Of a DNA stretch of 64,000 nucleotides, positions 12,304 to 64,000 are shown in pieces. The notes below the pieces were generated by a model. The model saw nothing but the letters and a program-made list of their open reading frames with translations, was not told where the DNA came from and ran no database searches. Both the position numbers and the translations under genes were made by a program. Position 1 is the stretch's first letter; the number at the start of each line of letters is the position of its first letter. This DNA is from Polytrichum commune (lineage: Eukaryota; Streptophyta; Polytrichopsida; Polytrichales; Polytrichaceae), in contig OX485808.1 in assembly GCA_950295325.1 (NCBI GenBank), positions 6,326,501 through 6,390,500 of the forward strand, in the 5' to 3' direction.

Positions 12304-13302
12304 ATGGAGGGGCCCATTGGAGATGGGTTTGTGCCCACCGTTGCCCCGGTTGCTCATCCCGATGTTTTTGGGGCGCCACCTCCAGTTGTGGGACCGGTTG
12401 TTCAACGTAAGAAGTACGTGGGGAGGAAGACATCTGCGTTGGGAGGTGCGGATGTTCATTCCGGTGGGAGGTGGAGCGATGCCGCCATAGCTAACATTTT
12501 GGACTTGTACGAGGCAGAGTGGCTGCATTGCAGCATGGGGTTACTAGCCGCCCGTCATTGGACCCGCATCCGGATCGAACACACAAGACAAATGCCTGCT
12601 GAGCTCCGGCGGGCGGATACTCATATCAAGGACAAGATTGAGAAGTTGAAGGCAGAGTACCGGCGTCAAAAGACCCTACCGGAGGAGCAAACTGGCGGCA
12701 GTGGCTCTACGTGGGTGTGGTTCAAGCACATGAAACATATCATGGGCGGCACCGCAAAGGGAGATGGCTTGGTGGGGGGGTGTAACCAAGGTCGTCCCTC
12801 TTGGGGGGAGCCTGCACATGGCGAGAGTTCCGTTCCCATGGCACATGCTGAGGATATTGGAGGATCTCATATTGGTCGCGTACCGCCTACACCGGACCAT
12901 CTTGTCGATGTGGACCCCGAGACTGTGGACACTCCCGACATTGCAGGTTCACAACATGTGCGTGGTAGCTCGACGCATAGCCCTCTTTCGCCGAAGTCTG
13001 CTTCGTGCATGCGACCTGGCGTTGCAGGGAAATCGAACGCTAAGAAACGCACCCTCACTGACACCATTTCCTTGGCGAACGCCATCAGTAGCTTCACGGA
13101 GGGCACCACGAAGGTGGAGCAACACAAGATGGAGTCCGCTGAACGCATGACACAGTTACTGATTGATTCTAATGAGCGCATGACATTACGACTTGCGGAA
13201 ATTGAGACGGAGTCTCGTCGCGAGGCGAGGACCACTCAAATGGCTATTGCAATTTTGTTCTCCACGATGATGGCCAACAAAGCCCCGCATACTTCGGAGT
13301 GA
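12304..13302 (+). CDS. Harbinger Myb/SANT-like (trihelix) DNA-binding protein
   Basis: A 332-residue protein starting at the first ATG of the frame (MEGPIGDG); the open frame extends 42 bases upstream only on a TTG codon. Residues about 55-145 form a Myb/SANT-like trihelix domain: GGRWSDAAIANILDLYE starts helix 1, followed by a charged KIEKLKAEYRRQK helix and a WVWFKHMKHIMGG third helix. In Harbinger elements the companion Myb-like protein binds the transposase, carries it to the nucleus and helps it find the element ends. The C-terminal 100 residues are helical and glutamate/methionine-rich (MTQLLIDSNERMTLRLAEIE), a likely coiled-coil interaction segment. It is uninterrupted and looks intact. 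Convergent with the transposase at 15484-16491. Confidence 0.8.
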   Translation: MEGPIGDGFVPTVAPVAHPDVFGAPPPVVGPVVQRKKYVGRKTSALGGADVHSGGRWSDAAIANILDLYEAEWLHCSMGLLAARHWTRIRIEHTRQMPAELRRADTHIKDKIEKLKAEYRRQKTLPEEQTGGSGSTWVWFKHMKHIMGGTAKGDGLVGGCNQGRPSWGEPAHGESSVPMAHAEDIGGSHIGRVPPTPDHLVDVDPETVDTPDIAGSQHVRGSSTHSPLSPKSASCMRPGVAGKSNAKKRTLTDTISLANAISSFTEGTTKVEQHKMESAERMTQLLIDSNERMTLRLAEIETESRREARTTQMAIAILFSTMMANKAPHTSE

Positions 13303-15483: not shown

Positions 15484-16491
15484 CTATGGTATAGCTAGGA
15501 AATCTGAATACAAAAGCTTACGCAGTGCCTCACCCGCGAGGGTTGTTTGGCGACCCTCACGATGCCTAGGCAATTGTCGGGCTAACCCTATGTGGGGATC
15601 GATACAAACTCCTACACCATCGCAAGGTTCTCCAACTTTCATCAGCTGGCAGAAGTTGTGCAACACACAACATGCAGCGACGACCTTCGGAAGCCGAAAT
15701 ACAGAACAATTTGCACGCTTTAGTATCCTCCACCTACCCTTCAACAAACCGAAGGCATTCTCAACAAACACACGTCCAGTATTCATCTGCAGGTCGAAGC
15801 GGATTTTGTTGACGTTGTCATCCGCAGGCTTGAAATTGCGCAACATATATTCACGACTGGGGTAACCTGCATCTGCAAGAAGATACGGCCGCACCCTCGT
15901 ACCTCGGACCAAAACCACAGGCTCCTGCAATATGCTGCGGTCCACAAGCTGCGCATACAAAAAAGAAACCTTCAGTGCGCCACTGTCAGCTGTACCACCT
16001 GGCATCGTACAACACACACTCCAAAATAAGAGGTCAGTATCACAAACGCCTTGGAGGACGACGGAGTTGAACCCCTTTCGTGCGTAGTAAAAGTCCGCCG
16101 GAACACTTGTATCGCGTCGGCTTGGCTTCGACTCCATGGGAATATGAGTGCCGTCAATAGAGCCAGCCACGTTGGGAAGCCCGCACACATACTGGAATCT
16201 ATCGATAATATGTTGCAATCGTGGTCCGTGAGGTATAGATATATATCTAGCAAAAAGTTTGTGCTCATAAGATAAAACGCCAACAACTAGATCGATGTAC
16301 TTACGAATGGTAGACGCCCCGACTCCGAATCTATCGGCCAACAATCTAGCACTTAAACCATGAGCCAGACGGAACACAACTATACCCACAATCATATCTA
16401 CAGGCAGGGGCTCCCGTACGAACATAAGAGATTCGGGTCTAATCCAAGGTTCAATTTCTGTGACAAGGAATCGAAATGCCGCATAAGACAT
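15484..16491 (-). CDS. PIF/Harbinger DDE transposase (HARBI1-like, DDE_Tnp_4)
   Basis: A 335-residue frame. The N-terminal ~75 residues contain a helix-turn-helix (GLSARLLADRFGVGASTIRKYID). The RNase-H-like catalytic core follows with all three acidic residues visible: GSIDGTHIPM (first Asp, about residue 113), LLADAGYPSREYML (second Asp, about 206) and VENAFGLLKGRW (Glu, about 245). The chemistry would be cut-and-paste transposition with a TWA target. Upstream of the ATG the same frame continues: codons reading KFRDEKYKLAYR, then a single TGA at 16561-16563, then 67 more codons to 16764 ending REWWKEPRQCTHW, which look like the family's usual N terminus. So the real protein was probably over 400 residues and has acquired one nonsense codon, or it starts downstream at 16491. 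The catalytic domain itself is uninterrupted. Confidence 0.87.
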   Translation of the reverse strand: MSYAAFRFLVTEIEPWIRPESLMFVREPLPVDMIVGIVVFRLAHGLSARLLADRFGVGASTIRKYIDLVVGVLSYEHKLFARYISIPHGPRLQHIIDRFQYVCGLPNVAGSIDGTHIPMESKPSRRDTSVPADFYYARKGFNSVVLQGVCDTDLLFWSVCCTMPGGTADSGALKVSFLYAQLVDRSILQEPVVLVRGTRVRPYLLADAGYPSREYMLRNFKPADDNVNKIRFDLQMNTGRVFVENAFGLLKGRWRILKRANCSVFRLPKVVAACCVLHNFCQLMKVGEPCDGVGVCIDPHIGLARQLPRHREGRQTTLAGEALRKLLYSDFLAIP

Positions 16492-17140
16492 TCGATATGC
16501 TAGTTTGTATTTCTCGTCACGAAATTTTGTGCTTGTTTGCCAAACATTGCCCTCGATCTCTCACCAATGTGTGCACTGGCGAGGCTCCTTCCACCATTCA
16601 CGTCCGGGACCCCTCACTGTATGCGCAACCATCGACAAAATGATGGGTAGCACCCGAGACGCAAGAGATGTCTCGGAAAAAGAGCAAACTCCATCGAGAG
16701 TTCTCAATCTCTTAACACGCCGAAGAAGACTTGTATCCGCCTCTACGATAAAAAAAACATACAAAAAAAGATCACAATGTCCATATCATGCATCGCGAAT
16801 AAATCGATCCAAAACCCACAAATTATTCGCATAGAAAACAGAACAAATCTAAGTTGTGTTTGAAAGCCACAAAAAACCTAAAGTTCTAAACTCTTTAAAG
16901 GCTCCTGGTCCAGCAGAGAAAGGCTTCAAACCAGCAGAGAAAATATCAAGGAGAAAAAAAGATCAGGGGGGAAAAAAAAATTTACCTTCGGGCCCAGCCA
17001 CCGCCATGTGGCGGCCCAGGCTGTGCCGCCGCAGCCATGTGCCCGGGCGGGGCCGGCTGGCAGTCTGGGTGGCCGAGCCCCCAATTTCCTCGCGGCGGGG
17101 CCCGCGGCTTCACAGGGCCGGGCCAAGCCCCCATGTGCCC

Positions 17141-26290: not shown

Positions 26291-26529
26291 CTACAATATT
26301 TTTTTTGGCAAACAAAGTGAAAGTTTATATGTATTATTATGCAAACTCTCTTATTTTATCCGTCATACTTCTCCTAACAAATGCAAACTCACTTATTTCA
26401 TTGGTTATAGAGTAAAGACACCCATGACCTATCAATTAAGAGCTTATGCGTTGGATGTGGAGAAGTGCGAGGCCGTGCAAAATTTTCCCATGTAAGAAGA
26501 TAGGAATCTAGAGGCCTGCAAGTTATGAG

Positions 26530-29500
26530 CGGAAAATATTGATTTTGTATTGGAATAGAGAGCCCTCTACGGTAATCCCCTCGTGCATGTTGATGTGTAG
26601 GCAAGCCTTGTGGGGGCTATGGACACATGCGAGAGAACAACTTCTCATACAAGTGTGCCTTTTCTTGGCAAGAGGGAATCACCACAAACAAATGCAAGAG
26701 TTTCATCCATCTATCATGAATGAGAAAATCATTCACACTCCATAACTCCCTTCGGTTCACCTCACTGTGCATCCATCCATTCATCCATCTATCCATGCAT
26801 CCATCCATCACGAGATCGCATTTCAATCAATTTGAGATCATAATTACTTTTAAAGAACCCGAATGAGTCTAGTCCAAGTCATTTGAAATGAATCGTTACA
26901 AACCTGTACATTGGACACATGGATGGATGAGAAATCGCTTGTATGCGAGGGATTTCTTCATATGTGGCCCCAACATGCCTTGCCCCAAACATATTGTGAA
27001 ATGTGCCAGGATGACGTCCCCGAGCTTGTTACATGGGCCGAGGGTGCCAATGTTTTGTGTGCCCAGGCGGTAGGATAGAGGAATGGATGAACCGCATCGA
27101 CGAGTTTCTATCGTGGAGAACAAGTAACCATGGATGAATGAAAGGGAGGATGGGGGGATGGATGATGGGGCGAGGACATTGTCAGTCAAGAGGCTTGAGC
27201 TTTATGTATTATATGTGGCCACCTCACCTTTTCCTTGCGTCCACAATGAGCGCTCTTCCTTGCCTTGTCTCGTGCATCGGAGTGCATGCCAATCGGCTCA
27301 AGCATCCGATAGCCAAGGCCAAGAGCAACGATTCTAGTTGCACGTAAGAGTAGACGGAGAAGCTAGAGGTGGAGAGAGAAAGGTCACAAATACACGGAAT
27401 ACATGGAGATGAGATTGAGGTCTGAGACCTCACAAAATTACCCAACCTAGATTGCCATCCGTTTGGTGAAGTGTTACCACACGATTTGTTAACCTACCTA
27501 GTACTTAGTGCCAGTGGGGCACACAACACGACTAGATAGGGCAACCCCCATCCCCATGTAAACAATGGCCCAAGCTAGACATCGACTTGTTGATTACATC
27601 ATTCTCTCTCTATATATATATATAGATGAATGACGTACTGCTTGGAAACCAAAGGTGAGAGCAATTTTTTTACTAATAGTGTACCTCTCATTCATCCAAC
27701 ATGAAGCCCTCAAGTAGTTTGTAATTACTTGTGAGCAAGACAAGTAGTATTGGTGACAATAAGGTGGAGGTATGTATATACAACCATGAGAATCAACATA
27801 TACGACCAAAACATAAAATATCTACTCGTTACTAGATTTTCCTAAAACTGTAACATTCTATTTTAAGTATCATGAGAGAAATGTATTTATGCTCATTGAA
27901 GGGAGTAGAAAGAGAAGAACTAATTTGAATACTTCCAAGTTATAAAACTAAGATACACTTATTGGAGAATTATTGTAGTCATGCTTTGGATAGCCCACCC
28001 CACATGTGGTCATATCCTTGAGTCATTCTCTTGAACCTAATATTTTCTCTTATTTTATCAATCCTCCTTATAAGATAGCCTCCTTCTCATATAATTTACA
28101 TTTAGTATTCTATAATTGCCATTATATGTGATACGGTTTATTTTTAGCACAAGCACAACACTTGTATTACATTCTCAGCTGTAAATGGATTGCACTCTAT
28201 CTTTAGTATGATACCTTAATTTATGGTAGTTAATTTATAAATAGACATAGTCTATATTCATTACATTCTATTCTAGTACATACCTTAGTTCTATGAAAGT
28301 TCGAATGTAATAGGTACAGTCTATTTTTAGAAGTATAAAATACAATAAATAGTTTTGTCAATATAATCGTATACTCATTTCATCATAATAAAAATCATGT
28401 CATAACACCTTTTATGTTCATATGACTTGTTGTATTTAAATTCCCAAGGCAATCAATCACAATTTTGAGTCTTAAATAATACAAGATCAAGTATCATTAT
28501 AGAATGAAGAATGAGAGCGTAATGAAATAGACATGTATGGAATTAATTATGATTTGGTTCATGTTGAGCATTTGACAACTCTAGACTCATAGCGACATTG
28601 ATTTAGGAAGATACATGCGTTCAATTATCAAGCGTCCTTGCATGCAACCTTATAAATTCTCATTCCGATATTCTTTAGTTTTCCTTAATGTCTCTAAAGT
28701 ATCCAACTCCACTCACCAACTTTGTAATGCAACTATTCTCACCTCATCTGAGCTTCTATGGTCTCTCATTACACAACTGCCTTTCAACACTTACAATAAT
28801 AATTTCTCAATCACACTCAACTTCCAACTCATGTGACTATCTCACCTCACGCGAGTTTTTATTCATAGCACTTGTCAAATCTCTCATTACACAATCAATT
28901 TGATGATGTCTACGTTATGAATTACTTTGCCTCTACCTTAAATAACTAAGAAGAAAGTTTGAGCTTGAAGCTCTTGTAAACATAGAGGTAAAGATACAAA
29001 GGACCTAGCTCTAATGTAGCCTATCGTCGTGAATAAAGGTGTGCTAACATTAATCCTAACTCTACATTAATCCTAACTCTATATATAGGAGGAGATGGCG
29101 CCTCACATGTGCCCACCTTCCTAGATGGCCAAATCTCCTACGACTTTTACGAAGATGACGAATGGCCATTAAGAAGTCATTTCTTGGCTCTAATTCCTTC
29201 CATACACCGGGTCCTTCACCTACATGGTCAAAACATCATTGATTCCACATAAGGTACACTACTTCTAAGTGGCCTTCTTATGAGGCTTACTAAGTTCTTT
29301 AATTTACTAATGTTCTACTTGCCTCCAACAGTAGCCTACAAGTCCAAAGTGATTCACTAATTGCAACCTCTTTCAATACCTCTTGCAACACAACTATCAC
29401 ATCAGCATTTGAGGTTATTGTTGTATAATTGCCCAAATTGCATCGTATAGAGAGTGCAGAAATCTACCTACTAAACGTTGGGATTGCAGAGAGCTGACTA

Positions 29501-34440: not shown

Positions 34441-36388
34441 ACCTCCATGGTTGTTAAAATTTAAGGCGCACCCGAACTACACTTTGAACTCCGTAGTATC
34501 ACGCCTGTGGCAACCAAAGTGCACGTCATGTTACAAAGTTTTGTAGTGTTAACATGGATGCATGATGCTAGAGAATTAGTGGTAGCATGTGACATTATGG
34601 AACAACACAAAGGAGATGTGAGGACAACTTGAATTTGTACTCCCGTCACGTGCACTAGTGTGGTCCACTCCGCTTGGCCTTCCCTGGATGATGTGGCGGA
34701 CGCATGCACCAACATTCAACAAGTGGCATAAGAGGAAGAAGAAGAAGAATAAAGATTGAGAAGGTGACACTCCACATGTTGATACATGACGCAATGCGAG
34801 GGCGTGGGTTGACTTCTTGGATGATTTGCATTAATGACAAATTTCGTGATATAAAGGAGAGAATGTGACACTAAGGAGTGAGATTTGAACCAAGAACATC
34901 CGTTTCCTAGGGTTTCGGGATATTAGAGAGTGTGTGACATTATGGGGGGTTGATATTACGGAGTTTAGGGTGTATTGCCGTTACTTTAAACTTGGCAACG
35001 GCCAATCATATGGCTAGGTGAGAGCAGCTTTAGCTTTCCGGGAGTAGTTGGGTGCGAGGTGCCGGAGGTAGGCTTGGTGTTTTATACCTGCCACATAGTG
35101 TGCCAGCTCGATTCAAGTGGTACACCAAATACAATATTTAGTATGGCTTACTATTTGGATTTGCACGGGGCTATATTGTTTTACTATTAAATTTATTTTA
35201 TTATGTAAAGTTTTCAATGTTCTATAATGTCCAAACTGCCAATTTAACAATTGTTGGTAAAATATGAAATGTATAATAAATAGGTATAGCATTGCGTAAT
35301 TCCACATAGTAAGCCACACTAAATATCATATTCAGTGTAGTTGCATGCGGTGGTGGGTGCAAGGAGTAAATAATAAACCCTAAACCACCCTAAAAACCCC
35401 GAGATAAAGTTAGGTGGGGCAGGCCCTTCTGGTTGTGCAAGTAATGCCCCCTCCCCACCCGACTTTAGCTAAGACTAAAAGTTGGTTCTAACAACCCGGC
35501 CTTCACACCATCAACATTATCTAGTGCCGAGCCTAGTTGGCAAATGATGTGGCATGGCTTACAAGTGGAGGTTTTAAGCCTCCAACACCGACCCTCCCAT
35601 CGGTACCTAAACATGAGGCAAGAACGTAGGACCTTTAAAAGTGTCACCTCCCACCCGTGCCATTGGGTGCGTTTTAGTCTTAGCTATGAGGGCATGAGGA
35701 GCTGCATTAACAAAAACTAATGGTAACATAGATGAGTAGTAAGGGATTTGGGGATGGGACAAAAACTTATCCAACATTTATTGCTTGGTAGATAAAACCA
35801 TGAACATGTGTGAAAGCTACTTAACTAAAACCTAGTTGAAAATCTCCGGAACAAGTTCTTGTAGGTGCATTGGGATAGCCAGATGCGTCCCCTATAACTG
35901 AGGGAGCTTTACTCGGTTTTTAGGAAAGACTTTGGTTATTTGGTAAAGTCAGGTGGGGAGGGGGCATAAGTATGGTAGTCTTTTGTTTGCTGATACTAGC
36001 CCCACCAAACTTGAATATTGAAAGTAATACAAGAATTTCTTCCAGTTAGATCGGTTCTATCATAGAACTAATGATACCATGGATTCACTTGCATTCCAAG
36101 TTTCTAACCTTCACTCTTTGTGTGTGCAAGTGGAACCTAACGTAAAAGAAAAGAAAAGAAAAAATTACGCCCGTACATTGTATCGGCATGAATATGAGCC
36201 CGTTATCCAAATGCTTAACGCGGTATACCATGTTGTAGCATGAGGGGTTATGCCTCTTTTAGGAGGTGGGCTCTATTAGTTAAAAGGTTCAATCCAATTT
36301 TAGGGTGGTGCGAGAGTAGTTTGGTTGTCGTCGAGTTTCCTTTTGTTGTGTACAAGATAGATATGGTATTTAATGGCATTTTGATTTC
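34441..36388. other. Gene-free stretch
   Basis: No supported coding region. Contains the MITE at 35123-35337 and the partner (about 36148-36280) of the repeat at 11-140. Confidence 0.4.
35123..35337. mobile_element. Short MITE with TA target duplication
   Basis: Flanked by TA (35121-35122 and 35338-35339). The terminal inverted repeats of about 45 bases pair CACCAAATACAATATTTAGT on the left with the complement of ACTAAATATCATATTCAGTG on the right, followed by GGCTTACTAT.TGGA in both arms. Same ends as the SBP1 exon insertion at 2558-2886; internal sequence matches the 49760-49981 element better. Confidence 0.8.
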
Positions 36389-36743
36389 ATGAGAGTCTTG
36401 ATGTTATTCTTTGGAATTTTGAGGTCAATTAGTTTTTCAATGGATTGTTCGTGTATAACTCCTCTTACTCCTGCTATAATAGTGATAAGGGGGTTTGTTT
36501 TTCAGCCTTTGTTTCGTATATTATTGATTAGTGGGTTGTATTTTGCATGTTTTTGTGTGAGGGCATGTTCGGGGAATATGTCGTGGCAGTATGTGAATTC
36601 AATGAATTGTATTGTGTATGTGTGTGTGAAGGTAGTAATGGGGTTGAAGTGTGGTTTGGGGCGCCTAGTATGCAAAGGATATCTGGTCTTAGTCTGGCTT
36701 GACATTGGCAACTTGTTTGTGGGCATGTACATTCTATTAGCCA

Positions 36744-36956
36744 TTATGGGACAGTTTGTTCTTGGTTCATGTTATTGAGGTTGCCTGCGTTTGTCAGAGT
36801 GTAGTATCGGGTGTGTTTGTTGGCTTGTAGTGTCTGAGTGATGAGCTGTACCACCTTATTGTGGCGAGCTATTCTTAGGCCTTTCAAATAAAAGTGCTCG
36901 CACATTGATAGTAAGTGGGGCCATGTATCTCTGTCGTTTTGTGTCATAGTGTACAA
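36744..36956 (-). pseudogene. LINE C-terminal segment after RNase H
   Basis: The translation includes NDRDTWPHLLSMCEH, then KGLRIARHNKVVQLITQTL. A 'His-Leu-Leu..Cys ... Arg-His-Asn ... aliphatic' pattern after RNase H is characteristic of LINE polyproteins and may be a zinc-knuckle-like nucleic-acid contact. It overlaps the end of the RNase H frame in another frame, showing a frameshift between them. Confidence 0.6.
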
Positions 36957-37773
36957 TTGGGGTTTTGGAATTTAAGGGGCCAAAAGATGTTTTTCCTATG
37001 GCTGCCCATGTATTGGGCATATGTAAATTTTAGTGTTTGGGTGATTTGGGCATCCGTTACTTCTTTATTTTTCCAAAAATGATTGGAGAGTTTTTGATTT
37101 ATTTGTTTGTTAGTTAGCCATTTTTCTATGTATGGGAATTTGTTTTGGGCATTTGCTAATTTGCGGTTGTCGTGTGCTTTTATTATGAATTTGTGTATGT
37201 TTCTAATGGCTCCATTGTGTGTGGATGTTGGGCAGCTTCCTAGCCAGTAGGGTGAGGCATGTGCTAGGTGTATGTGGGATATGGTTGATGGTTTTTCCTT
37301 AAGCGTCCCCTCATTAGCTAATGTATCAGCTATTTCATTTCCCATGATGCCCGTGTGGGCCCGTACTTTGTGGATGTGGATTAAATGTGGGGTCCAGTAT
37401 ATTTGATGTATTATGGCTGCTATAAAGAGTTTATTAGGGTGGTGTAGTATGTGATTATTGATTAAATATATGTTGTTAAGGTTGTATGTGAATATGTGTG
37501 TGTCAATTTGAGATTTTTGTATGGTTTTGATGGCGATGAGTATAGCGTTTAGTTATGCCCTTAGGATAGTTTGCTATCCTGGTAATCATTATGATATGTG
37601 GGTGTTATTGTTGGGGCTATATATTCCAAAGCCTGCCATGTTGCCTTTTATTTGTCCTTCATAATTTTTAGAAGGGGGGATAAATGACCCGTTTGTGTAT
37701 ATGCAATGTTGCGGGTGATATTTGAGAGGTTGTCGGTGATAGTATTTGGTTGGTAGCGTTATTGGGGGGATGT
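36944..37773 (-). pseudogene. LINE RNase H domain, inactivated
   Basis: Motifs in order: HCIYTNGSFIPPSKNY (first active-site motif, normally with Asp where this copy has Asn), GNMAGFGIYSP, LRA-stop-LNAILIAI (the catalytic Glu codon is TAA), IFTYNLNNIYLI (the DS motif lost) and HKVRAHTGIMGNEIADTLANEG (the well-preserved last motif, with Asp). RNase H removes the RNA strand during reverse transcription. With three of four acidic positions lost and an internal stop, it cannot be active. Confidence 0.8.
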
Positions 37774-37810
37774 TTATTGTTGTGGGGGTATTATTTTTGG
37801 GTGTATTTTT

Positions 37811-38383
37811 TCATGTGTTTGAGAATTTAATGCGATAGTTTGGTTTTGTGGTTTTAATGAGATATGTGTCTATGTGTGTGTTAGTGGTGTGTTTTAATAT
37901 GTGTGCTAGTTCGTGTGGAGTTTGTAGGTTGGGTGTTAGGTTTGCTTGGCTATGTATGCAGATTATTGATGTGAGCGATGATTCTATATATTGGTAGTAT
38001 TTTGGCCATTCCGGTGGGGGGTTATATTGTATGGTATGTGGGGGGATGGTGGCCATTGTGTGTATGTCAACATTTGTGGTTAGTGGGATTTGTTGTGATG
38101 ACCAATCTTTGTGATTAACTATGAGGATGGTGATTATATTTGTATCTTCTTTGGCTGTTGTGATGGCCCATTGGATGGCTTTTATAGTTGTGTTGTGGTC
38201 TGTGGGGTATGCCAGGCCAATGCCTTGCCATTTGGAGGATTGCACATGTCCCATGGAGCCAAAAATGTTGTCCCGGTTGTGAGGTGAGTAGTATTGTGTG
38301 AGTTGTAGGGGGCATGTGAGTGGGGATGAGTAGTACGAGTGTGTCATTTTAAAGGATTCTATTAGTATTTTAGTAATTGCCAA
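37811..38383 (-). pseudogene. LINE internal domain, resembles Dam-like adenine methyltransferase
   Basis: A 190-residue frame lies between reverse transcriptase and RNase H. The order is YYSPHNRDNIFGSMG, then SKWQGIGLAYPTDHNTTIKAIQWAITTAKED, then ITILIVNHKDWSS, then IPPHTIQYNPPPEWPKYY. This parallels phage-type Dam N6-adenine methyltransferases: a 'TP..fd.l...fg' start, W.G..(N)PPY, helix, aliphatic strand with P/H.DW, and an R/F.F strand. The catalytic (N/D)PPY position reads AYPT here, so this copy would be inactive. The frame ends at a stop just before the RNase H fragment. The start used is an ATG, but the domain continues from upstream sequence. The assignment is by motif order only and is uncertain; it may instead be an unnamed linker domain of this LINE clade. 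Confidence 0.4.
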
Positions 38384-38514
38384 GTGTAGTGTGTGGTGTA
38401 GGTTTTTTGGTTGTATTTTTTTTGGTTTTTTCTTGGGGAGTATAGTTATGTATCTTTGTATAAGCCATAATATTTATGTTTCAAAGTTTTGGGGAGGGGG
38501 TTGTAGGGAATTAT

Positions 38515-38763
38515 TTAGGTGTGTGAGGTTATTATGGGAGAATTGATTCCGTAGCCATTGTAGACGTTTGGTAGTGACGGTGGCCATGTATTTCCCTCTA
38601 TGGTCGTATATGTTAGCTTCGGAGTTTTGTATTTGGATGGTTGGTTGGTTTGTATGTATGTCTTTGTCAGGGTTGCACTCTTGTGTGGATAGTTTGAGGT
38701 TGGTGTCAGGCCAAACCCACCACCCTTAAGCGTCCTAGTCCGAGTGATGGGTTTGGAGATCAC
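38515..38763 (-). pseudogene. LINE linker fragment
   Basis: About 80 codons (TLKGGGFGLTPTSNYP; TTIEGNTWPPSLPNVYNGYGINSP) continue the LINE polyprotein between the linker at 40.3-41.1 kb and the methyltransferase-like part. Its start is where an insertion with 8-bp repeats CACATGTG splits the element. No recognised domain. Confidence 0.5.
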
Positions 38764-38768
38764 ATGTG

Positions 38769-40258
38769 TAGCATGAAACTTGTAGTAACATGAAATGTAC
38801 GTTCCACCTTGATGGACTCACAACTTACTTCAGGTCATGCCATTTTATTAATGTGATCCTCTTGCATAGGTACATCCTTGGCTTTCTCAAGAGTCCACCC
38901 CACCGCCTTTGTCACGCATGCCCTCAAGGATTTCCCCCTTGCGAGCTTGGTCCTGGCTGACGATTCTTCACTAGTGCATGACACCTCGTTGAGGCTTTGG
39001 CGTGTTGATTCCATGAGGCACGTTAGTCTTTAATACAAGTGTTAAAAAACACTTCTATAACTTGTCGTCGTCTTCTTTTCCATGATTTCCCCACAACTCT
39101 TTCACAAGTTCACACCTTAATGCGACCACTGACCAACTAGCTTGACCCAACTAGCTTAACAATCTAGTCTAACTATCTGACCTAACTAACTAGCCTCTTA
39201 ACTAGACTAACCGCGCACCCAGTTTAAACTAGTCGTAACTTAATTGGCCGAACCCAGATTAGGCACAACAGTAACAGGGCTTCGGCCACAAGAGTAGTAG
39301 AGCTTCGGCCCACAGTAGTAGGGCTTCGGCCACAACAGTAGCAGAGCTTCGGCCAACAGTAGCAGAGCTTCGGCCCACAGTAGCAGGGCTTCGGCCACAA
39401 CAGTAGCAGGGCTTCGGCCACAACAGTAACAGAGCTTTGGCCACAACTGTAGCAGGGCTTCGGCCACCACAGTAGCAGAGCTTCGGCCCACAGTAGCAGG
39501 GCTTCGGCCACAACAGTAACAGGGCTTCGGCCACAACAGTAGCAGAGGCCGAAACCTAGCTTAGGCCTAACCCAACTTAAAACCCACAAAATCAAGTACT
39601 AATAATCCAACATAAATCTAAATGCCATAAATCTAGATACCATGAGTCTAAACGCTATAAATCTAAACACTATAACACTAAATGCTAGAAATTGAACACT
39701 ATGAGCTAAGCTCTTGTTTCTAAGTGCCTTAAATCCAAGACTACATCCAACAATGTGAAGCTAACTTCAAGACTAATTAGTCTTGGTTCTTCACCTTGAA
39801 ACCTTGCACACACACGTGCTCCTCTTTTGCTTCCCACACACCCACACTTATAACACATGGGGTGCCAAGGAGCACGAAGGAAAGAGGGAGAGAGAGAGGG
39901 GAGAGTGAGGGTTATATAGTGAGGTGAAAGGAAGGAGGTGAGCACCCCCAAGGCTCAAGATAAACCTTTTGATCCCTTCCTACTTTGTAGGCTCTCATCC
40001 TATCCTTTAAGCCTTCAACTCTTAAACCAACAACATAGATCCTAATTCAAACATTTAACTCAAGGAGCTACCCTTGGTTCACCACACACTATGCTCACCT
40101 AACTAAGGAACTTTCTTCACACCGCTAAACTTCTAATCAACCACTCCACATGAGCCTAAGGCCTAAACATAACTTCACTCAAGCCTCACTCTTTTTATAT
40201 TTTTGTGAATAATCATAAAATATTAAAACATAACTTCTAATAGTTTCAAAGGGTTAAG
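38769..40258. mobile_element. Insertion in the LINE, flanked by CACATGTG
   Basis: The 8-mer CACATGTG occurs on both sides (38761-38768 and about 40261-40268), and joining the outer sequences restores a continuous LINE context. An 8-bp duplication would fit hAT, but terminal repeats are at best weak (GAAACT..TAG near both ends). The interior holds a minisatellite (39262-39550) and a degenerate series of CTAAACACTATAAAT-type units (about 39590-39710). No transposase frame is present. Confidence 0.5.
39262..39550. repeat. Minisatellite, 21-24 bp unit CAGTAGCAGRGCTTCGGCC
   Basis: About 13 head-to-tail units alternate between CCCACAGTAGCAGGGCTTCGG and CCACAACAGTAGCAGGGCTT forms, differing by a 3-base step. 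Because unit lengths are multiples of three and lack stops, three minus-strand frames stay open for 90-120 codons (Ala/Leu/Pro/Cys-rich). These are artefacts, not genes. Confidence 0.9.
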
Positions 40259-40279
40259 AACACATGTGGGCACCATTTT

Positions 40280-41141
40280 GGGTTCACATTTGGTGATTTT
40301 TAAGGGGGGGTGTATATATTTGTTGTCCTTTGATTGGGTGTGGTTGATGAGATTAGCGTATGTTTGGATCATTTTCTGTTCTATTTGTTTTTTGTGGTAT
40401 TATGTTATGCATAGTATATTATGTTCCAATAGTATACTATCCGGGTGTGGTAGTTCTTCTTCTTTGTGCCATTATTGTGTGGTCCCTTGTGGTAATTGCC
40501 ATTGGCATATGTACATTCTTTGGATTGCTTGTGCTCCCCATTTGTCTCTTTTGGTATTGATTTTTTCATCGATTATGGTTTGGAATGTTTGTCCTAATGC
40601 TGCTTGTGGGGGAGGGGGGGCGTCTTATGTATGTGTATTTTGTGGGGGTGTCTGTTGTGCATGTTAAGGGTGGTTTATTTGTGTTGTGGGTGTTGGTGGG
40701 ATAGGGAATACTATTGAGGCTTGTTGAACGGCTTCTTTGATAGTTTTACGTATGTGCTTGCATGTGGTTTGGAATTCTTTTAGTGTGAGTATGGCTTTAG
40801 TATCTGGGATTTAGATTTGTGGTAGTGTGGTAGTGTGGTGATGCCAGACATGTATAGTTTGTCTAGGTATTTTTGGGTTTTGGTTTTGGAGTTTTCCGTC
40901 CGATTGTCGTAATTTGTGTTGGTTCTCCATGCTTTTTCTAGTGGGGTTTTTTAATGGGGAATGCGCGAATCACAGTGGTGACGAGTATTTCATATTCTCT
41001 TTCTAGAAGAAATAGTGTTTTGGCTATGGGTGATCGTATACACGCTTGTTGTTTGAATTTAGGGAGGTAAAGTAAGCCTCCGTATTTGTCCACTATGTCA
41101 CTACTAGAGATTGTGTACAATCTAGACATGTAACATGACAT
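40280..41141 (-). pseudogene. LINE linker between reverse transcriptase and methyltransferase-like part
   Basis: The minus-strand translation reads IRSPIAKTLFLLEREYEI, then after frameshifts LTLKEFQTTCKHIRKTIKEAVQQAS and FPIPPTPTT. The style and order match the polyprotein fragments on either side, so it is assigned to the same LINE. No catalytic domain is recognised. Confidence 0.5.
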
Positions 41142-41499
41142 GTATTGAAGTAAACAAAGACGTGACTTAATAACATATATTACTAGAAATTGTGTTGTCT
41201 ACGACATGTTTTGGAGGACCATGCCCTACACCCCCATGGATCGTTGCTTTGGACATATGTTTAGGACCATTGCTTATGATGTCTGAATATACTAATTGTT
41301 TTACGGGCTCCACACTAAATTATTACTTAACGTTAAAACGTGCATGCATGTGTAGGGCTATCATTGGTTGATATGCTGAATAATGCGTACACCAATTTTT
41401 TAAAAGAGATATCCATCATTAGTAAGTCCAATCCTCACCTCCCGAGCCTTGCCATCTATAAGCACCTATAGTTCTAAGTCCCTAGCCACTTACCTAGTA

Positions 41500-42412
41500 C
41501 AGTCCACCCTCTATAAGTGTTACCTCTATAAGTGTTAAAATTTCATAAGTGTTAACATTTTTTCTACTCCCTACTTGGGAAGACTACAATAACGTTAAGT
41601 GTTAAGTGTTAACTGATTGGCTACTCCCCTCTTTGTAATTTTGCCCTCTATATCTGTTAACTTATTATTATACTATATAATACCATACAATACAATATAT
41701 TGTAACATAGCACATGTAATATACTGTAACATACTGTAACATACCCCCCATTTAGAAATTATTAGGGTTTAGGATATTGACTGCAAGTCCCTCCTTCGTC
41801 AACTCACTTTACCCTAGCAGGTTGAGCCAGTCTACTAGCGTTCGAATTTCTGAGAATGTTGTTTTCGAATTTCAGACTTGTAGGGCAAATCACATACCAT
41901 TAGAAAGCTATTGAGGAGAATTTGACTTGAATAATCCTTACCAACCATCCAATGAGGAATTGATGGAGATGTTCAACCCATATTCCTTTGTTGAGGAGGA
42001 GGATGACACTGAAACTCTTGCATCTGAACCTATAGCCCTTGTGTGTTACAAGGATGTGCTGTCTTCACTTCAAACTTTACGTCATTATCTTGAGCAGAGG
42101 TCTACTGATGTTATGCATTTGGTCAAGAAATTAGAAAAGTTTGAGAAAGAGATTGATCACCTACATGTGAATCAGCTCCAACAGACCTCTATAGATGCCT
42201 TCTTCCATCCTAGAGGAGTGTAAATGGAGGAGTGAGACTCCTCAATTGTATTTTGGAACTTCATTTGGTATTATAACAATATTTTACTTGTGTTACATTT
42301 ATACGTGTTATGTTTTGATTTGTTAAACTCTATATTTCTATAAGTGTTAACACTCTATAAGTGTTAACAATATTACCACTCCCAATTGTTAACACTTATA
42401 GAGGGTGGACTG
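41500..42412 (+). mobile_element. Non-autonomous pogo/Tigger element, complete with TIRs and TA TSD
   Basis: Perfect 23-bp terminal inverted repeats (CAGTCCACCCTCTATAAGTG plus TTA) occupy 41500-41522 and 42390-42412, flanked by TA (41498-41499 and 42413-42414). The CAGT start and TA target are those of pogo/Tigger. Subterminal CTATAAGTGTTAAC copies at both ends are likely transposase-binding repeats. The interior keeps only the 3' end of the transposase gene. The perfect termini suggest fairly recent mobilisation. It inserted next to, or within, the SINE at 42415-42505. Confidence 0.92.
41927..42223 (+). pseudogene. Pogo/Tigger transposase C-terminal tail with PIP box
   Basis: About 95 codons remain, with no good start codon (the frame opens at a TGA at 41912, and the listed start would be TTG). 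The tail is acidic (FVEEEDDTETLAS), then helical (DVLSSLQTLRHYLEQRSTD), and ends QLQQTSIDAFFHPRGV. The segment QTSIDAFF is a perfect PCNA-interacting (PIP) box, Q-x-x-I-x-x-F-F. Drosophila pogo transposase is known to bind PCNA through a C-terminal PIP motif. The DNA-binding and DDE domains are deleted. Confidence 0.75.
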
Positions 42413-42414
42413 TA

Positions 42415-42505
42415 GGCTAAGCCTAGGGCGGGGGCCAAGGGGTTTGATCCTTGAACCTCTTAGCTCCCACATAGAGGCCTTAGCCACTAAGCCACCACTC
42501 CGCGC
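42415..42505 (-). mobile_element. tRNA-derived SINE remnant
   Basis: The minus strand has a canonical Pol III A box TGGCTTAGTGG (about 42484-42494) and, about 35 bases later, a B-box-like GGTTCAAGGATC (about 42446-42457). The sequence downstream is not tRNA. The pogo element abuts it directly, so the original SINE probably continues on the far side of pogo, below 41498. Confidence 0.6.
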
Positions 42506-42529
42506 ATGATACATTAGATGTATTTAAAA

Positions 42530-43130
42530 CATTTGTATATAGAGGCCCCAAGTTACTCTTCATTTTTTATTTATTGTATACAATATAATATCAACTATAT
42601 ACGGCATAAATTATTTACTGTCTCTTATTTATTGCTTATAATTTATAGTATAGTATTTGTTGTATACATCCTATAATTTACTATTAAATGTCTCGTATTT
42701 ATAGTTTATATTATCATATTTACTATGTACTGCCTAATATTCCATGTTTATAGTATAGTATATAATATATTTATAGTATATAATATATTTATTTTAGTAT
42801 GTTATTATTATCTACTCTATATAGTATTTTATTTAATACTTATGGTATGATATTTAATATTTAATATTTATAGTATATTATTACTATTAATGGTCTGATG
42901 TTTATTATTTATATTTTAAATATTTTAAATAGTATTTTTAAACTTTCAATATGTTATTTTTATCTATTGTATATAGTATATTATCTACTATTTATGATAT
43001 TATGATATTATTTTATTTCTATTAATGGTGTACTATTCTTAGTTACTATTTATAGTATATTATTTTACTATTAACGGTCTTTTATTTATTATATACTGGA
43101 AACTATCTATCGTTTACTGTGTACGTGATT
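42530..43130. repeat. Low-complexity TAGTATATTATTTA-like AT-rich tract
   Basis: About 600 bases of irregular TATAGTATATTATT and TTTATTATTTATA units with very few G or C. No gene. Part of the DNA that splits the LINE. Confidence 0.7.
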
Positions 43131-43369
43131 TTCCACATACGCCTTAAAAATTACCGACCAAATTTCACACAATCTATTGGGCAAATTGTTTGATGTTGAT
43201 GTGAGTCATCCTATAAATACTATCGGGGCATCAATGTGTTAATAATGACTATTTTCCAACACTTATACTAGAAACATGTCGATTTTTTTTTTTAATGAAG
43301 TGTTGGTCCAATTAGCACATGCGTGCTAAAACACTGTACTAAAAACCATTGTTTCTCTTGTAGTGTGTG

Positions 43370-43810
43370 TTTGGCTAGTCCTTGGTAGATGATGCCTAAT
43401 TGTCGTGGGTCATAAAGGGCATGTATTAATTGTTGTCCTATGCAGCGTATGTAGTCTGGTAGAAACGAGGTTACATTAATGCCGAAGTTTTCATGGGGGA
43501 GGTGGATGAGGATGTTGGCAGTGCTTTTGGGTATATTGCATATTTCCTTGGTTAGTTAACTGATGATCTTGTCTAGTTTCTGGTTTGGAGAATGAAACAG
43601 CGTAGTAGGCATATGCGATTCGGGGCTTGATAACAATGTTTAAAATTTTAATTTTTTGTGTGGGCTAGCCGGTGAGTTGGTTAGTAGTTGGCTTTGTTGT
43701 TTGACCTTCTTGAGTGTTGTTTCCTTTTGTAAGTTCCATTTTAATGATGGGGTTAGGTGTATTCCTAGGTATATGTATGGTTCGTTTTGGGTGAGCACCT
43801 AATGTAAGTA
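43370..43810 (-). pseudogene. LINE reverse transcriptase, C-terminal part
   Basis: The minus-strand translation starts NEPYIYLGIHLTPSLKWNLQKE, the YLGI motif that closes the RT palm in LINE polymerases. It continues QSQLLTNSPASPHKK, ICNIPKSTANILIHLPHENFGINVTSFLPDY and QQLIHALYDPRQLGIIYQGL, a thumb-like region conserved in LINE clades. A few in-frame stops occur. The catalytic FADD box would lie upstream but is missing, because the LINE sequence stops at about 43810, as expected for 5' truncation. Confidence 0.75.
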
Positions 43811-44457: not shown

Positions 44458-44773
44458 TAGTATAGGCCCATGCCATCCTGACCTTTTCCATCCGTGCATA
44501 TGACCCATCATTCTACTGTTAGTCCCCCCACCTTCCGGAAACAATGGGAAATGTTGGGAAAAGCCACCCATCCCCACCACCACGTTGTCCGTTGTATACC
44601 TAAAGACCACTCCAACATCATGCCCCTTGAGCCCTCTGTGTGTCGAAGCTCGTACTACAAGCCCGTGAGGTTTCTGTAGAGGGCTCTCTGTTGCATATTC
44701 ACAAGTGCTGGTACTAACTAGTTTCCACATGGGATATAAGTGGGTCTTGGTGAATGTGAGCATGACACGTGGC

Positions 44774-47700
44774 AAGTTATGAGGGGGGAATATTGATTTT
44801 GTGTGGGAATAGAGAGTCCTCAACGGTAATCCCCTCATGCATGTTGATGTGCGGGGCAAACCTTGTGGGGGCTATGGACAGAGGCGAGAGAAAATCTTCT
44901 CATACAAGTGTCCCTTTTATTGGCAAGAGGGAATCACCACAAACAAATGCAAGGGTCTCATCCATCTAGCATGAATGAGAAAATCATTCACACTCCATAG
45001 CTCCCTTCCGTTCCCCTCACTGTGCATCCATCCATTCATCCATCTATTCATCCATCTATCCATCCATCATGAAATCGCATTTTAATCGATTTGAGACAAG
45101 AATTACCCTTGAAGAACCCGGATTAGTCTAGTGAGAGTCATTTGAAATGAATCGTCACAAACCTGTCAATTGCAAACTTGGATGGATGAGAAATTGCTTG
45201 TATGCGAGGGATTTCTTCATTTGTGGCCCCAGCATGCCTTGCCCCACACATATTGTGAAATGTGCCAGAATGAAGTCCCCGGGCTTGTTACATCGGGTGA
45301 AGGGTGCCAGTGTTTTGTGTGCCCCGGCGGTAGGATAGACCAATGGATGAGCTGCATGGATGAGTTTGTGTCGGGGAGAACAAGTAACCATGGATGAATG
45401 AAAGGGAGGATGGGGGGATGGATGATGGGGCGAGGACATTGTCAGTCGAGAGGCTCGAGCTTTATGTATTATATGTGGCCACCTCACCTTGTCCTTGCGT
45501 CCACAATGAGCGCTCTTCCTTGCCTTGTCTCGTGCATGCCAATCGGCTCAAATAATCCGATAAACAAGGCCAAGAGCAAGGATTCTAGTTGCACGTAAGA
45601 GTAGACGGAGTACATGGAGATGAGATCGAGGTATGTAACCTCACAAAATTACCCAACCTAGATTGCCATATGTTTGGTGAGGTGTTACCACACGATTTGT
45701 TAACCTACCTAGTATTTAGTGCCATTGGGGCACACAACACGACTAAATAGGGCAACCCCCATCCCATGTAAACAATAGAATGGCATGCGCTTGACATGGA
45801 CTTGTTCACTGCATCATTCAATATATATATATATATATATGAATGACGTATTGCTTGGAAACCAAAGGTGAGAGCAAATTATTTCATAATAGTGTACCTC
45901 TCATTCATCCCACATGAAGCCTTGAAGTAGTTTGCAATTTGTTGTGAGCAAGACAAGTAGTATTGGTGATAATAAGGTGGAGGTATGTATATACAACCAT
46001 GAGCATCAACATATATGACCAAAACAGAAAATATCTACTCGTTACTAGATTTTTCTAAAACCACAACATTTTATTTTAAGTATCATGAGAGAAATGTATT
46101 TATGCTCATTAAAGGGAGTAGAAAGAGAACTAATTTTAATACTTCCAATTTATAGAACTAAGATACACTTTTTGGAGAATTGATATAGTCATGCTTTGGA
46201 TAGCCCACCCCACATGTGGTTATATCCTTGAGTCATTCTCTCGAACTTACTATTTTCTCTTATGTTATCAATCCTCCTTATAAGATAGCCTCCTTCTCAT
46301 ACTATTCACATTTAGTATTTTGTAATTGCAACTATATGTGATACGGTTTATTTTCAGCACAATCACAACAATTGTATGACATTCTCAGTTGTAAATGGAT
46401 TGCATTCTATTTTTAGTATGACACCTTAAATTATGATAGTTGAGTTATAAATAGACATACTCTACATTCATTACATTCTATTTTAGTACATCTCTTAATT
46501 CTATGAAAGTTTAGATGTAATAGTTACAATCTACTTTTAGAAAGGAAAAATATAATAAATAGTTTTGTCAATATCATCATATACTCAATTTCATCATAAT
46601 AAATATAATGTCATAGCACCTTTTATGTTCATACGACTTGTTGTATTTGAATTCCCAAGGCAATCAATCACAATTTTGAGTCTTAAATAATGTAGGTTCA
46701 AGTATCATTATAGAATGAAGAATGATATCGTAATGAAATAAATACGTCAGGATTTTATTTTAATTTGGTTCATGTTGAGCATTTGACAACTCTAGACTCA
46801 TACCGACATTGATTTAGGAAGATATATGTGTTCAATTATCAAGCGTCCTTGCATGCAACCTTATACATTCTCATTCCGAGATTCTTTACTTTTTTCTTTC
46901 TCTCAATAATTTCCTTAATGTCTCTAAAGTACCCAACTCCACTCACCAACTTTGTAATGCAACTATTCTCAAGGTGTGCTAACATTAATCCTAACTCTAC
47001 ATTGATCCTAACTTTAATATAGGAGGAGATGGCGCCTCACATGTGCCCACCTTCCTAGATGACCAAATCTGTTATGACTTTTACGAAGATGAGGAATGCC
47101 CCTTTATAATCTAGTTCAAGAAGAGATCAATTCCCTTTATCTTCATTTACATCTTCTATGTGGTAGATATTTTGTACCGATATCTTTTGTACCAGATTGA
47201 TACCTCGGGGTTGGTTGATATCTTTTGTGCCCGAGTTGATGCCCTTAGGGCTGGTTGAAAACTGGCAAGCCCAAGCTTGGGACCAGGTCAATATCCGCCA
47301 ATATCTCTTGAAAAGGGGTCTTGTTCCCCCCCCCCCCCCACCATCTACAAGACACGCGAAATCTTTAGATGGAACGGAGTAGGCCTAGAATACCGTACGG
47401 ATCACAACACAACCTTAGAATCATTCCTATCTAGAGTATACACTTCATTTGTAGAATTGTGGCTCATGGTTACAATAAATATTGTGTAATTTTCACCAAT
47501 CCATTTGGTAGCCTTGTAATCATACTTAAATTTATTACGGCCTAGATGTTTTCTGTAATATTGCAACATTACTTCGATGTGGGGATTGTTAGGATTTCTC
47601 CTCCCTAATTCCTCCGTTCGAGCAAGTAGGTCAACCGCATGCCTTAATACCCCAAATTGTTTCCCATTGCGCCTCCGCATAGCCTACACCCTACCCACCC

Positions 47701-60500: not shown

Positions 60501-61320
60501 GCTTGTTTGGCATTTTTTGAAGGATTAATAACAACAACATTGATCCAATGAATTTTATCTTCCTCTAACTTGTCAAATGTTAGATTATGGCAAGGATAAA
60601 GATTGAAGTTTACTCCACAAAGGAATGAAGAAAGGATTATTAAAAGGTGGAACAATGGTATTGTTGAATCGCATCAATCGCCACTTGGACAAAGTTCAAA
60701 ATCTTTATGTGAGAGTTTCTTACTTGAATTAAGAGGGCCATGAAGATGCACACGTTTTTACTCATTGTATGGTCCACTTGATGCAAAGTTTGTTTGTGAC
60801 TTGTTTCTTGGAAGAATTGGAGGTTTGCCATGCATTAGTTCAATACATGGAGTCATAGTTGGGGCAAAGAGATCACGTTGGTGGCACCAAGATTCAAAAT
60901 TGTCATCTACTTATTTTGTTGGTTTGTCTAATATAGTGTAGAAACCTTAGTTAGTTTCCACTTTGTAGTTGGATGGAACTTAAAATTCAAGAACCTTCTA
61001 GGTGTTTCGGGTAGTTGACCAAGAAAATACTAGATTAGGCCTCTTTTAAGGCATAAAACCATGAGTTGTAACATTAATTAGCAAGATGCGCTCGATTGTC
61101 ACATTGCTATAATTCTTTATTGCGAATGGAAATTTTTACCATGTCTATTCTTGCATATTACTAGCAGATTACATATTAATTTGCTTGTTAAGAATTATAG
61201 CATTTAAAATTAAATTAAAAAGTTGTGTCATGGTACATCAAAACATTTATTTTGTACTTACAAGGTTATGGTGTGCACAACAGGCAGCTATATAAAGGTC
61301 CTCATGTTGGGTTAAATATT
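57546..61320. other. Gene-free stretch upstream of the kinase-NLR gene
   Basis: Only short frames, none recognisable. A TA microsatellite lies at about 59752-59768. The last several hundred bases before 61321 would hold the promoter of the receptor gene, but no clear TATA box can be chosen in such AT-rich DNA. Confidence 0.45.
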
Positions 61321-64000
61321 ATGTGTTCCATCATGGCCAAGATCTTGCGGTGGGTTTTGATTTGGGGTTTCATAAGTATTATCTTTTTAAAGTTTTGGAC
61401 ATATGTGCGAAAAAGACAAGAACAAAATAAGCGTGGAGATATTTTGGAGTGGCAAAGCAAAGAAGTAACGAAACTTCATGAGGTTCTTAAGACAAAGCAA
61501 GTGCTTAATAAGAGACAATGTGAAAATCTTCTCAACAAACTCGACCGAGTTGTGTATCATGTCAATGGGATGATCACGTCTACAAATGAGACCTCCAATA
61601 TCGGGCTTGTGCTTGAGGAGTTATGTCGAATTATTCAAAGAGTACGAGTATTGGTGGAAGATTGTGGGAAGCAAGAATGGTGCCATGCAGCTGCATTCCA
61701 AATGAACAATAGGGAGGCCTTTCGAGAACTTGTGTACGATTTGAGATGTTTTTGGGATGCAATATGCATAGCAAATTCACTTTGGTGCGTGGAGTCACAA
61801 CATGACATCCCATGCATTGATTTTAAAGTGGCCACTTATGACGAAATTCAAGGTGATGAAGAAGACTTGGAAAAACGGCTTTTAGAATGCGTTCAAAGAA
61901 CGCCCAATCATAAGTTAGCAAAATATTTGTTGAAGAGAGTGCAACACGACTTGCAACAAGTGAAAGGTGCAGAATTGGATGCTTCGGAGATTTCAGAGGA
62001 TTTTATGAAACCGGACTTCTTGAAAGAAATAGGTTCGGGAGCAACAGGTGAAGTGTACAAATCAAGTTGGATGGGACTTCAAAGTGCAACAAAAGTAATG
62101 AAAGGTTCTCCAAACTCTCTCAAAGAAGCCAAACTCTTAGCAGGCTTGAGCCATCCGAACATCATCAAATTCATTGGTTGTGGAACTAATGAAAACCTTG
62201 AGGACAGTCTTGATGAAGCAAAAGAACTATATTTAGTAATGGAGCTCATGGAGATGAGCTTGGGTAGTTTCTTGAAAAAGCAAAAGAAACCCTTATCATA
62301 TATTGTTGCAATCGATATAATGTATCAAATTGCAAAGGGCATGTGTTATCTTCATGACATGTATGTTGCCCATCTTGATCTAAAGCCAGACAATGTGCTT
62401 CTAAGCTCCATGAGAATTGCAGGAGTAGAGGGAAATTGTGGCCATGGTTTTGTCAAATTGATGGATTATGATACTTCCAAAATGGAGGTTCAAAGCAAAC
62501 CAGAATTACAAAGACACACTATTGGTACACGAAAGTATATGGCACCTGAGATGGGGAACAAAAACAAAGAAGACCCACCTTGTGCGGCATGTCCTTTCCA
62601 AGTTGATGTATGGTCATTTGCAATGACATGTTCAGAGATTCTTTCTCTTAAGCAACCATTTTGGGACACGAAAGACATCTTACAAGACATAAAAGATAAT
62701 GTCAGGCCAGACCTACCTATCAATTGTAAGGACCTTACCGTGTTGCTCGAAGAATGTTGGGTTGAAGATCCTTCACAAAGGCCAACATTTTCTAACATTT
62801 GTAAACGACTCACAACCTTGAAGGAGTTCATGATTGGAACGTATTCGAATGATATACCAAGGTTTGATAAACACCGGTCTATGACCCAACATATGGAAAG
62901 GAAATCGGAAGCCTTGAAGCATGTCAAAAACTTCCTTGCTACAAAGAAGGTATGAACTTAAGTTTACTACAATGTGCTTATTGCTTACCTATGAGATGTC
63001 ATGTTTTTATTGTTATTAATTTAATTTGCTTGAAATTGGATTTTGATTATTGAACTCTTCATAGAGGATCCTAACGTGTGTGTTCTTTGTTTAGGCGGAT
63101 GAATTATCAACACAAAATGAAAAATTGGTGGGTCTTGAAACCAAACGTCCTCAAGTGAAAAATCAGCTTAAACAAGTGAATGTGTTGGGTCTCACCGGTA
63201 TGGGTGGAATAGGGAAGACCACCTTGGCTAAGGCTATATTTGATGATGTGAAATCCACATACAATGCATCATGCTTTATTGAACAATTGAAAAACAAAAC
63301 TTCACATGAAGTCCTATGGGAGATTATAGAAAAACTTGAAAGCTTGGACAAAGAAAACAAGCCTAATATGGTGGATGCTCAAGAAAAGGTGAGGGAGTTG
63401 TTGGCCAACAAGAAAGTCATTCTTATATTGGATGATCCACTAGATCAAGATCAAGTGCGTGATATAATTCCAACAAATGCTGAGTTTGTCAACAAAGGCA
63501 CCAATATTATCATAACAACCCGTGATTGGGGCCTACTAAAGGTTTTTGTGGAGGAGAATGGTAGGATAGATGTCAGGGAGTTAGATGGAAGTGCATCAAT
63601 ACAACTGTTTAATTCTTATGCTTATTCGGATGAAGGACAATTGTCACCAGAGTTATTTGATATACGTGACAAAATTGTGGAAGGTTGCAAGGGCTTGCCT
63701 TTAAGCTTGAAAGTCATGGGTGCATTCTTGCAAGGAAAGGAGAGGATTCGAAGTTGGGAAAGGGCTTTCCAAAGGATGAAAAGAGGCAGATGTTTGGATG
63801 GTGATGAAGGGCTTTGGAGTACCTTGAGGGTTAGTTTTGATGCATTAAAAGACGAAGAGAAAAAGTTGTTTCTAGACATAGCATGCTTCTTTCCCATGGG
63901 ATATGAGAAAGATACAACCTTGCGCACATGTGCATCTCCAAGTCATGTGCTTGATGTGTTGGTGGAGAGGTCCTTGGTGAAGATAAATGTACGCGGACGC
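61321..64000 (+). CDS. Protein kinase-NB-ARC immune receptor (PK-NBS-LRR type), 3' partial
   Basis: Exon 1 (61321-62949, 543 codons) starts at the first ATG of the frame; a second ATG lies at 61333. Residues about 8-30 (LRWVLIWGFISIIFLKFW followed by YVRKR) look like a membrane anchor. Residues about 60-190 are helical, possibly a four-helix RPW8/MLKL-like bundle. A protein kinase follows: GSGATGEVY (about 238), ATKVMK lysine, HLDLKPDN (351), MDYD (381), MAPE (407). HRD is HLD (a non-RD kinase) and DFG is DYD, so activity may be weak or lost. A 145-bp intron leads to exon 2 from 63095, open to the window end. It encodes NB-ARC: P-loop GMGGIGKTT (about 579), ILILDD (652), TNIIITTRD, CKGLPLSLKVMG (742) and LFLDIACFF (TIR-NLR-like RNBS-D). 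LRRs are expected beyond 64000. Kinase-NBS-LRR fusions are known from mosses. The likely role is an intracellular pathogen sensor; membrane tethering is inferred. Confidence 0.88.
62950..63094 (+). other. Intron joining the kinase and NB-ARC exons
   Basis: The donor AAG then GTATGA at 62950 and acceptor TTGTTTAG at 63094 join codons AAG and GCG in phase 0. Without splicing, the kinase frame stops at TGA (62953-62955), giving a kinase-only protein that ends KKV. Both the splice sites and the seamless NB-ARC frame after it support removal. Confidence 0.85.

Follow-up and report, generated by a model that had tools for sequence, protein, structure and literature searches.

PCIF1/CAPAM methylates the first adenosine of capped mRNA. 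It writes N6,2'-O-dimethyladenosine (m6Am) at the start of mRNA (PMC11345611) and is described as a protein reported only in eukaryotes (PMC8868631). The Pfam family to which it belongs, PF12237, carries the name PCIF1_WW, which is considered a misnomer, as the family represents a CAPAM-like methyltransferase and not a WW domain (PMC7641849). Methyltransferases are also known from mobile elements. Some retrotransposons have captured a cytosine methyltransferase, and DIRS elements are described that carry an adenine methyltransferase of the Dam-like type (PMC5890265). Here, we describe a retroelement of the long interspersed nuclear element (LINE) type in Polytrichum commune, located in a stretch of 64,000 nucleotides (assembly GCA_950295325.1, contig OX485808.1, positions 6,326,501 to 6,390,500, hereafter the window). 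Its polyprotein contains a domain homologous, at the profile level, to CAPAM. It is probable that a LINE lineage took up a CAPAM-like domain of the RNA cap-adenosine methyltransferase type, which in the living family would most likely have acted on RNA.

In comparison with PCIF1/CAPAM (structures 6irv and 6irx), the domain shows a significant profile match that spans the end of the helical part and the N-terminal half of the methyltransferase domain, with the SPL and D..FGS.G elements in register. It differs in its location within a retroelement polyprotein and in having YPTD for NPPF, and no N-terminal WW domain was seen in what remains of the interrupted and truncated element. SymbioLINE-Dnmt, SymbioDIRS-Dnmt3 and KnitGypsy-Dnmt3, as presented in PMC5890265, are likewise cases of methyltransferase capture by retrotransposons, a LINE among them; the captured enzymes are cytosine methyltransferases, whereas the domain described here is of the adenosine type. 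In SymbioLINE the methyltransferase lies upstream of the reverse transcriptase open reading frame (ORF), whereas here it lies between a linker and RNase H. The DIRS elements of the same source share the combination of a retroelement with an N6-adenine methyltransferase domain, which is Dam there and CAPAM-like here. An RNase H is shared with the Dualen/RandI LINEs (for Dualen, PMC4640811), and the Cys/His-RHN tail resembles R2-type LINEs through a weak match in the Protein Data Bank (PDB). No methyltransferase is mentioned in the main text of PMC4640811.

The broken element lies on the minus strand, from approximately 43800 to 36250, and consists of three A/C-rich, G-poor islands (A ~0.40 and G ~0.11 on that strand), a signature absent from the intervening stretches and the flanks. 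By composition, the 5' island (~43300-43800) forms the 5' edge of this copy and is probably the end of the reverse transcriptase, while the second island (~40250-41100) is a frameshifted linker of the polyprotein. The 3' island (~36200-38700, annotated as 36250..38690), continuous in its A/C-rich composition, holds the methyltransferase-like domain, RNase H and the Cys/His-RHN tail. A single minus-strand frame from 38725 to 36944 encodes the methyltransferase-like domain followed by RNase H; its 594 codons include seven stops, the terminal one among them. The original prediction, made by eye, had listed a reverse transcriptase end, a linker, a domain of about 190 residues, RNase H and an HC..RHN tail. 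The last four are indeed found in this order on the minus strand; the reverse transcriptase end found no profile support and is assigned by eye and composition, and two large inserts were not mentioned. The element is decayed, probably 5'-truncated, and read as a LINE-type retrotransposon. A search for its target-site duplication gave one unconvincing 9-base match, and no tyrosine recombinase, a trait of DIRS, was found in the Pfam-scanned pieces of this truncated element.

The PCIF1/CAPAM-like methyltransferase domain, together with the end of the helical part, occupies 37811..38725 (minus), with one internal in-frame stop at 38474-38476 and a further one following at 37811-37813; roughly the first twelve codons may still be insert sequence. 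The open part (37811-38473, 220 aa) lies in the frame of RNase H. When the 1782-base stretch was simulated 3000 times with a first-order Markov model, ~0.1% of the runs contained a sense-strand open frame of this length. Taken alone, the open part matches PF12237 with an E-value of 5.1e-7 and 29.9 bits, slightly under the cut-off of 31.1. When the upstream 84 codons are included, with the stop read as X, the match rises above the cut-off (35.1 bits, E 1.2e-8). It covers positions 13-101 of the 176 of the profile, corresponding to residues 74-166 of 37811-38725, or 38228..38506 on the minus strand. As controls, the methyltransferase segment of human PCIF1 matches PF12237 only (profile positions 24-176 of 176), and no Pfam family was matched by either of two shuffles or by the reverse of the domain.

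Against a hidden Markov model (HMM) of human and zebrafish PCIF1, the LINE domain ranked first of 1002 sequences (the domain, its reverse and 1000 shuffles), with a modest score of 8.5 bits vs 6.9 for the best shuffle. An hhalign comparison with PCIF1 spans 107 columns in one register at E 0.0026, with a probability of only 11.5%. In a second alignment, the identity to human PCIF1 is 21%. Both PCIF1 alignments place SSPLT (38315..38329, minus) over ASPLN and FGSMG (38249..38263, minus) over FGSRG. Judged from sequence comparison, the first half of the domain is soundly related to PCIF1/CAPAM; for the second half, collinearity alone supports the kinship. The motifs SSPLT, FGSMG, AYPT, VNHKDW and YNPPPEW were located in the translation, and the central idea of the original prediction, a relative of N6-adenine methyltransferases within a LINE-like polyprotein, is supported.

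Both alignments also place YPTD (38198..38209, minus), which lies beyond the significant Pfam match, over the catalytic NPPF of PCIF1. The catalytic site had been described as degenerate beforehand, and it is. As the NPPF motif is key for activity according to a review (PMC11345611), this copy is very probably catalytically inactive. The domain is accordingly classified, by its motif, as PCIF1-like and not as an active CAPAM. The extent of decay can be estimated from the six to seven stops in 594 codons, which correspond to ~0.08-0.09 substitutions per site. A change from NPPF to YPTD requires at least 4 of 12 nucleotides to differ, and the probability of at least this number is 0.0096 at 0.075, 0.026 at 0.10 and 0.11 at 0.16 substitutions per site. 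Because so many changes are improbable at the estimated decay, there is a hint, no more, that the loss of NPPF may be older than the decay of this copy.

The codon-position composition of the domain does not differ from that of RNase H (p 0.56-0.66). Both show a weak periodicity of three bases (p 0.020 and 0.013), which is missing from the two inserts (p 0.75 and 0.15). The strand bias of the domain, 0.432, was reached by none of 545 segments outside the element in the 64 kb, where the maximum was 0.198. We conclude that the domain is a long-standing part of the polyprotein, because it shares with RNase H the frame, the codon-position composition and the strand bias, while the inserts lack this signature.

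RNase H itself (37307..37705, minus) is supported by PF00075, with an E-value of 3.2e-9 and 37.5 bits at a cut-off of 25.8 (residues 36-168 of the frame piece 36944-37810, minus). In the PDB search, human RNase H1 chains were matched at E 3.6e-5. One NCBIfam scan gave no match, and another gave a partial match to RNase HI together with one at chance level. By eye, the domain is of the D-E-D-H-D kind, with three of the five residues gone in this copy: the first Asp is replaced by Asn, the Glu by a stop and the second Asp by Asn, while the His and the last Asp are retained. The archaeal type, as described in PMC4640811, has Arg where the D-E-D-H-D kind has His. An RNase H within the polyprotein is a trait of some LINE clades only.

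A LINE transcript is template and mRNA at once. The simplest target for a captured CAPAM domain, whether to act upon or only to bind, would therefore be the 5' end of the RNA that the element itself produces. The polyprotein would have been arranged in the order (reverse transcriptase end), linker, PCIF1/CAPAM-like methyltransferase domain, RNase H and Cys/His/RHN tail. The domain would have been taken from a eukaryotic cellular gene of the CAPAM type and kept in the lineage long enough to gain the A/C-rich composition of the element. In the living family, where it may be present throughout, the domain would have recognised the element's own transcript at its cap-proximal adenosine and probably methylated this base at N6. 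Recognition or methylation at this position could serve the life cycle by leaving the RNA more stable, better translated or selected by its own protein. With its YPTD, stops and frameshifts, the present copy very probably has no function now. That a plant LINE lineage encodes its own CAPAM-type enzyme, which marks the capped 5' end of its RNA with N6-methyladenosine and would make the element a retrotransposon with its own epitranscriptomic writer, is put forward as a tentative proposal.

Several observations weigh against this interpretation. The PF12237 match does not reach the catalytic motif, from which 6-8 profile positions separate it, and the C-terminal half of the domain is backed by hhalign and inspection by eye only. 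Since NPPF is absent, methylation by the family is inferred. A phmmer search of the domain against the PDB gave no match, PCIF1 included, and the AlphaFold model of the single sequence was useless (mean predicted local distance difference test score 35.2). No relative of the domain was found in viral contigs or in genome contigs, leaving a single copy. The scan of genome contigs covered prokaryotes, with candidates confirmed by tblastn, a procedure that distant relatives can escape. For the reverse transcriptase end (43300-43800), neither Pfam nor the PDB (phmmer) gave a match, and the single NCBIfam match was at chance level. Finally, the comparison with Dam separates the families less well than it appears to, because the jumbo-phage Dam family of AMM43637.1, used as its yardstick, has been placed closest to the PCIF1 clade (PMC7824862).

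The original prediction had assigned the domain to the Dam family and had suggested a search against PF05869. This search was run, and PF05869 was not listed at E-values up to 10, a range in which the filters of the Pfam search discard most matches above ~0.1; PF12237 is preferred instead. The phage Dam used as a control matched PF05869 only and not PF12237. For the alignment, Dam was represented by AMM43637.1 and four relatives, 82-93% identical to it, and thus by one narrow phage family. The hhalign comparison of the domain with the alignment of these proteins was limited to 5 columns (E 0.26), and against a single-sequence Dam HMM the domain, scored together with 1000 shuffles, came 582nd. 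A Dam-type identity was rejected on these results. A Dam-like DNA adenine methyltransferase, with which the element would methylate DNA or its own cDNA, is therefore improbable. Domain order and C-terminus in DIRS elements differ from those found here, where the methyltransferase precedes RNase H. It is true that Dam-like domains occur in DIRS retrotransposons (PMC5890265), and the placement of phage Dam next to PCIF1 speaks in the same direction, since the two kinds may be related and the family alone does not give the substrate. The AMM43637.1 protein differs from the domain in being a small, stand-alone phage protein. PCIF1 and Dam may be distant kin, and the comparison points to the nearer family and not to unrelatedness of the two. 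The hhalign comparison of PCIF1 with phage Dam showed no relation at this alignment depth, and a deep kinship lies beyond the reach of these tests. As the nearest family is not Dam, methylation of DNA becomes less likely. The suggested bearing on N6-methyladenine (6mA) in early land plants does not follow, because RNA 5' ends, and not DNA, are now the likely substrate.

The remaining alternatives concern the origin of the match and the function of the domain. A chance or composition effect in A/C-rich coding sequence is very improbable as the source of the Pfam match. The composition bias is strong, and sub-threshold matches to Peptidase_M78 (E 0.012) and Pro-kuma_activ (E 0.0047) do occur in these pieces, but the PF12237 match exceeds the curated cut-off and the two shuffles and the reversal were blank. 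A processed host PCIF1 copy, or another unrelated piece of gene, might have dropped into the LINE by chance, as one copy was seen and two other inserts lie in the same element. Such a fallen-in piece was rejected, since the domain is A/C-rich, which the inserts are not, and shares its frame and codon-position composition with RNase H; this origin is improbable as well. A catalytically dead CAPAM-like domain could also have been fixed in the LINE family as a module binding the RNA 5' end or cap and selecting the element's own full-length transcript. This explanation has homology and capture in common with the one preferred here and differs in the last step, so the two are not exclusive. The improbability of the at least 4 of 12 changes suggests that the loss of the motif may predate the decay of this copy; against this stand the uncertain alignment of the motif, the assumed ancestral codons and a decay estimate derived from few stops. 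On balance, a dead binding module is rather unlikely.

If the capture of a CAPAM-like domain by a LINE holds true, it would bring an RNA-cap adenosine writer into a mobile element. It would then become testable whether cap-adenosine methylation benefits a selfish RNA, and PF12237 matches in plant genomes might stem from transposons and not from host genes. In searches of open-access papers aimed at this point, no report of a LINE with a PCIF1-like domain was found, which does not establish priority. Neither the domain nor PCIF1 gave a relative in phages by tblastn. The absence of relatives from the prokaryote scan agrees with the reported restriction of PCIF1 to eukaryotes. The RNase H ORF had no relative in viral contigs, and the PHROGs search gave no result. 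Within the window, tblastn revealed no other copy of the coding pieces; two short matches at ~49.8-50.0 kb correspond to the 5' flank.

The outer parts of the element are less well defined. The 5' edge of this copy (43300..43800, minus) is probably a remnant of the C-terminal end of reverse transcriptase (YLGIHLTPSLKW), as indicated by a YLG motif seen by eye and by composition. For the linker (40250-41090), Pfam scans gave no convincing match. After frameshifts, the tail consists of a Cys/His stretch and RIARHN (36810..36932, minus), which resembles the zinc-finger/endonuclease junction of R2; a C-terminal Cys/His finger with a restriction-like endonuclease is the trait of RLE-type LINEs (R2, Dualen). 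The tail piece 36744-36971 had only two PDB matches, 8gh6 and 8ibw, both named 'Reverse transcriptase-like protein' and weak (E 0.048), which we take to be R2 reverse transcriptases. A longer, hand-joined tail query gave no R2 match in the PDB.

Composition breaks mark the two large inserts within the element. The first (38700..40250) carries a tandem array (39264-39547) as well as a TATA-like word, and is perhaps a solo long terminal repeat with approximate ends. The second region (41100..43300) contains a 917-bp DNA transposon (41498-42414) with 25-bp exact inverted termini (TACAGTCCACCCTCTATAAGTGTTA) and TA at its outer ends, which is probably mariner-like. Beside it, a stretch at 42440-42530 appears tRNA-like by eye and is perhaps a short interspersed nuclear element; ARAGORN found no tRNA in the window, and the Rfam scan of the window gave no result.

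Next to the LINE, a dispersed repeat is present at 26518-29164 and 44772-47098 (~2.6 and 2.3 kb), the longest aligned pieces being ~89% identical. On the plus strand, a protein kinase ORF (61219-62952) lies directly upstream of an NB-ARC ORF (63095-64000), and the two may form one kinase-nucleotide-binding site (NBS) resistance gene. Such kinase-NBS genes are reported from mosses; the pairing points to a land plant and would be moss-like. Elsewhere in the window, a 34-copy tandem array with a 72-bp unit (8771-11221) has long open frames on both strands, a Myb/SANT-like ORF lies at 12127-13299 (plus), and an open frame of 358 codons at 15487-16560 (minus) encodes a DDE_Tnp_4 (Harbinger-like) transposase.

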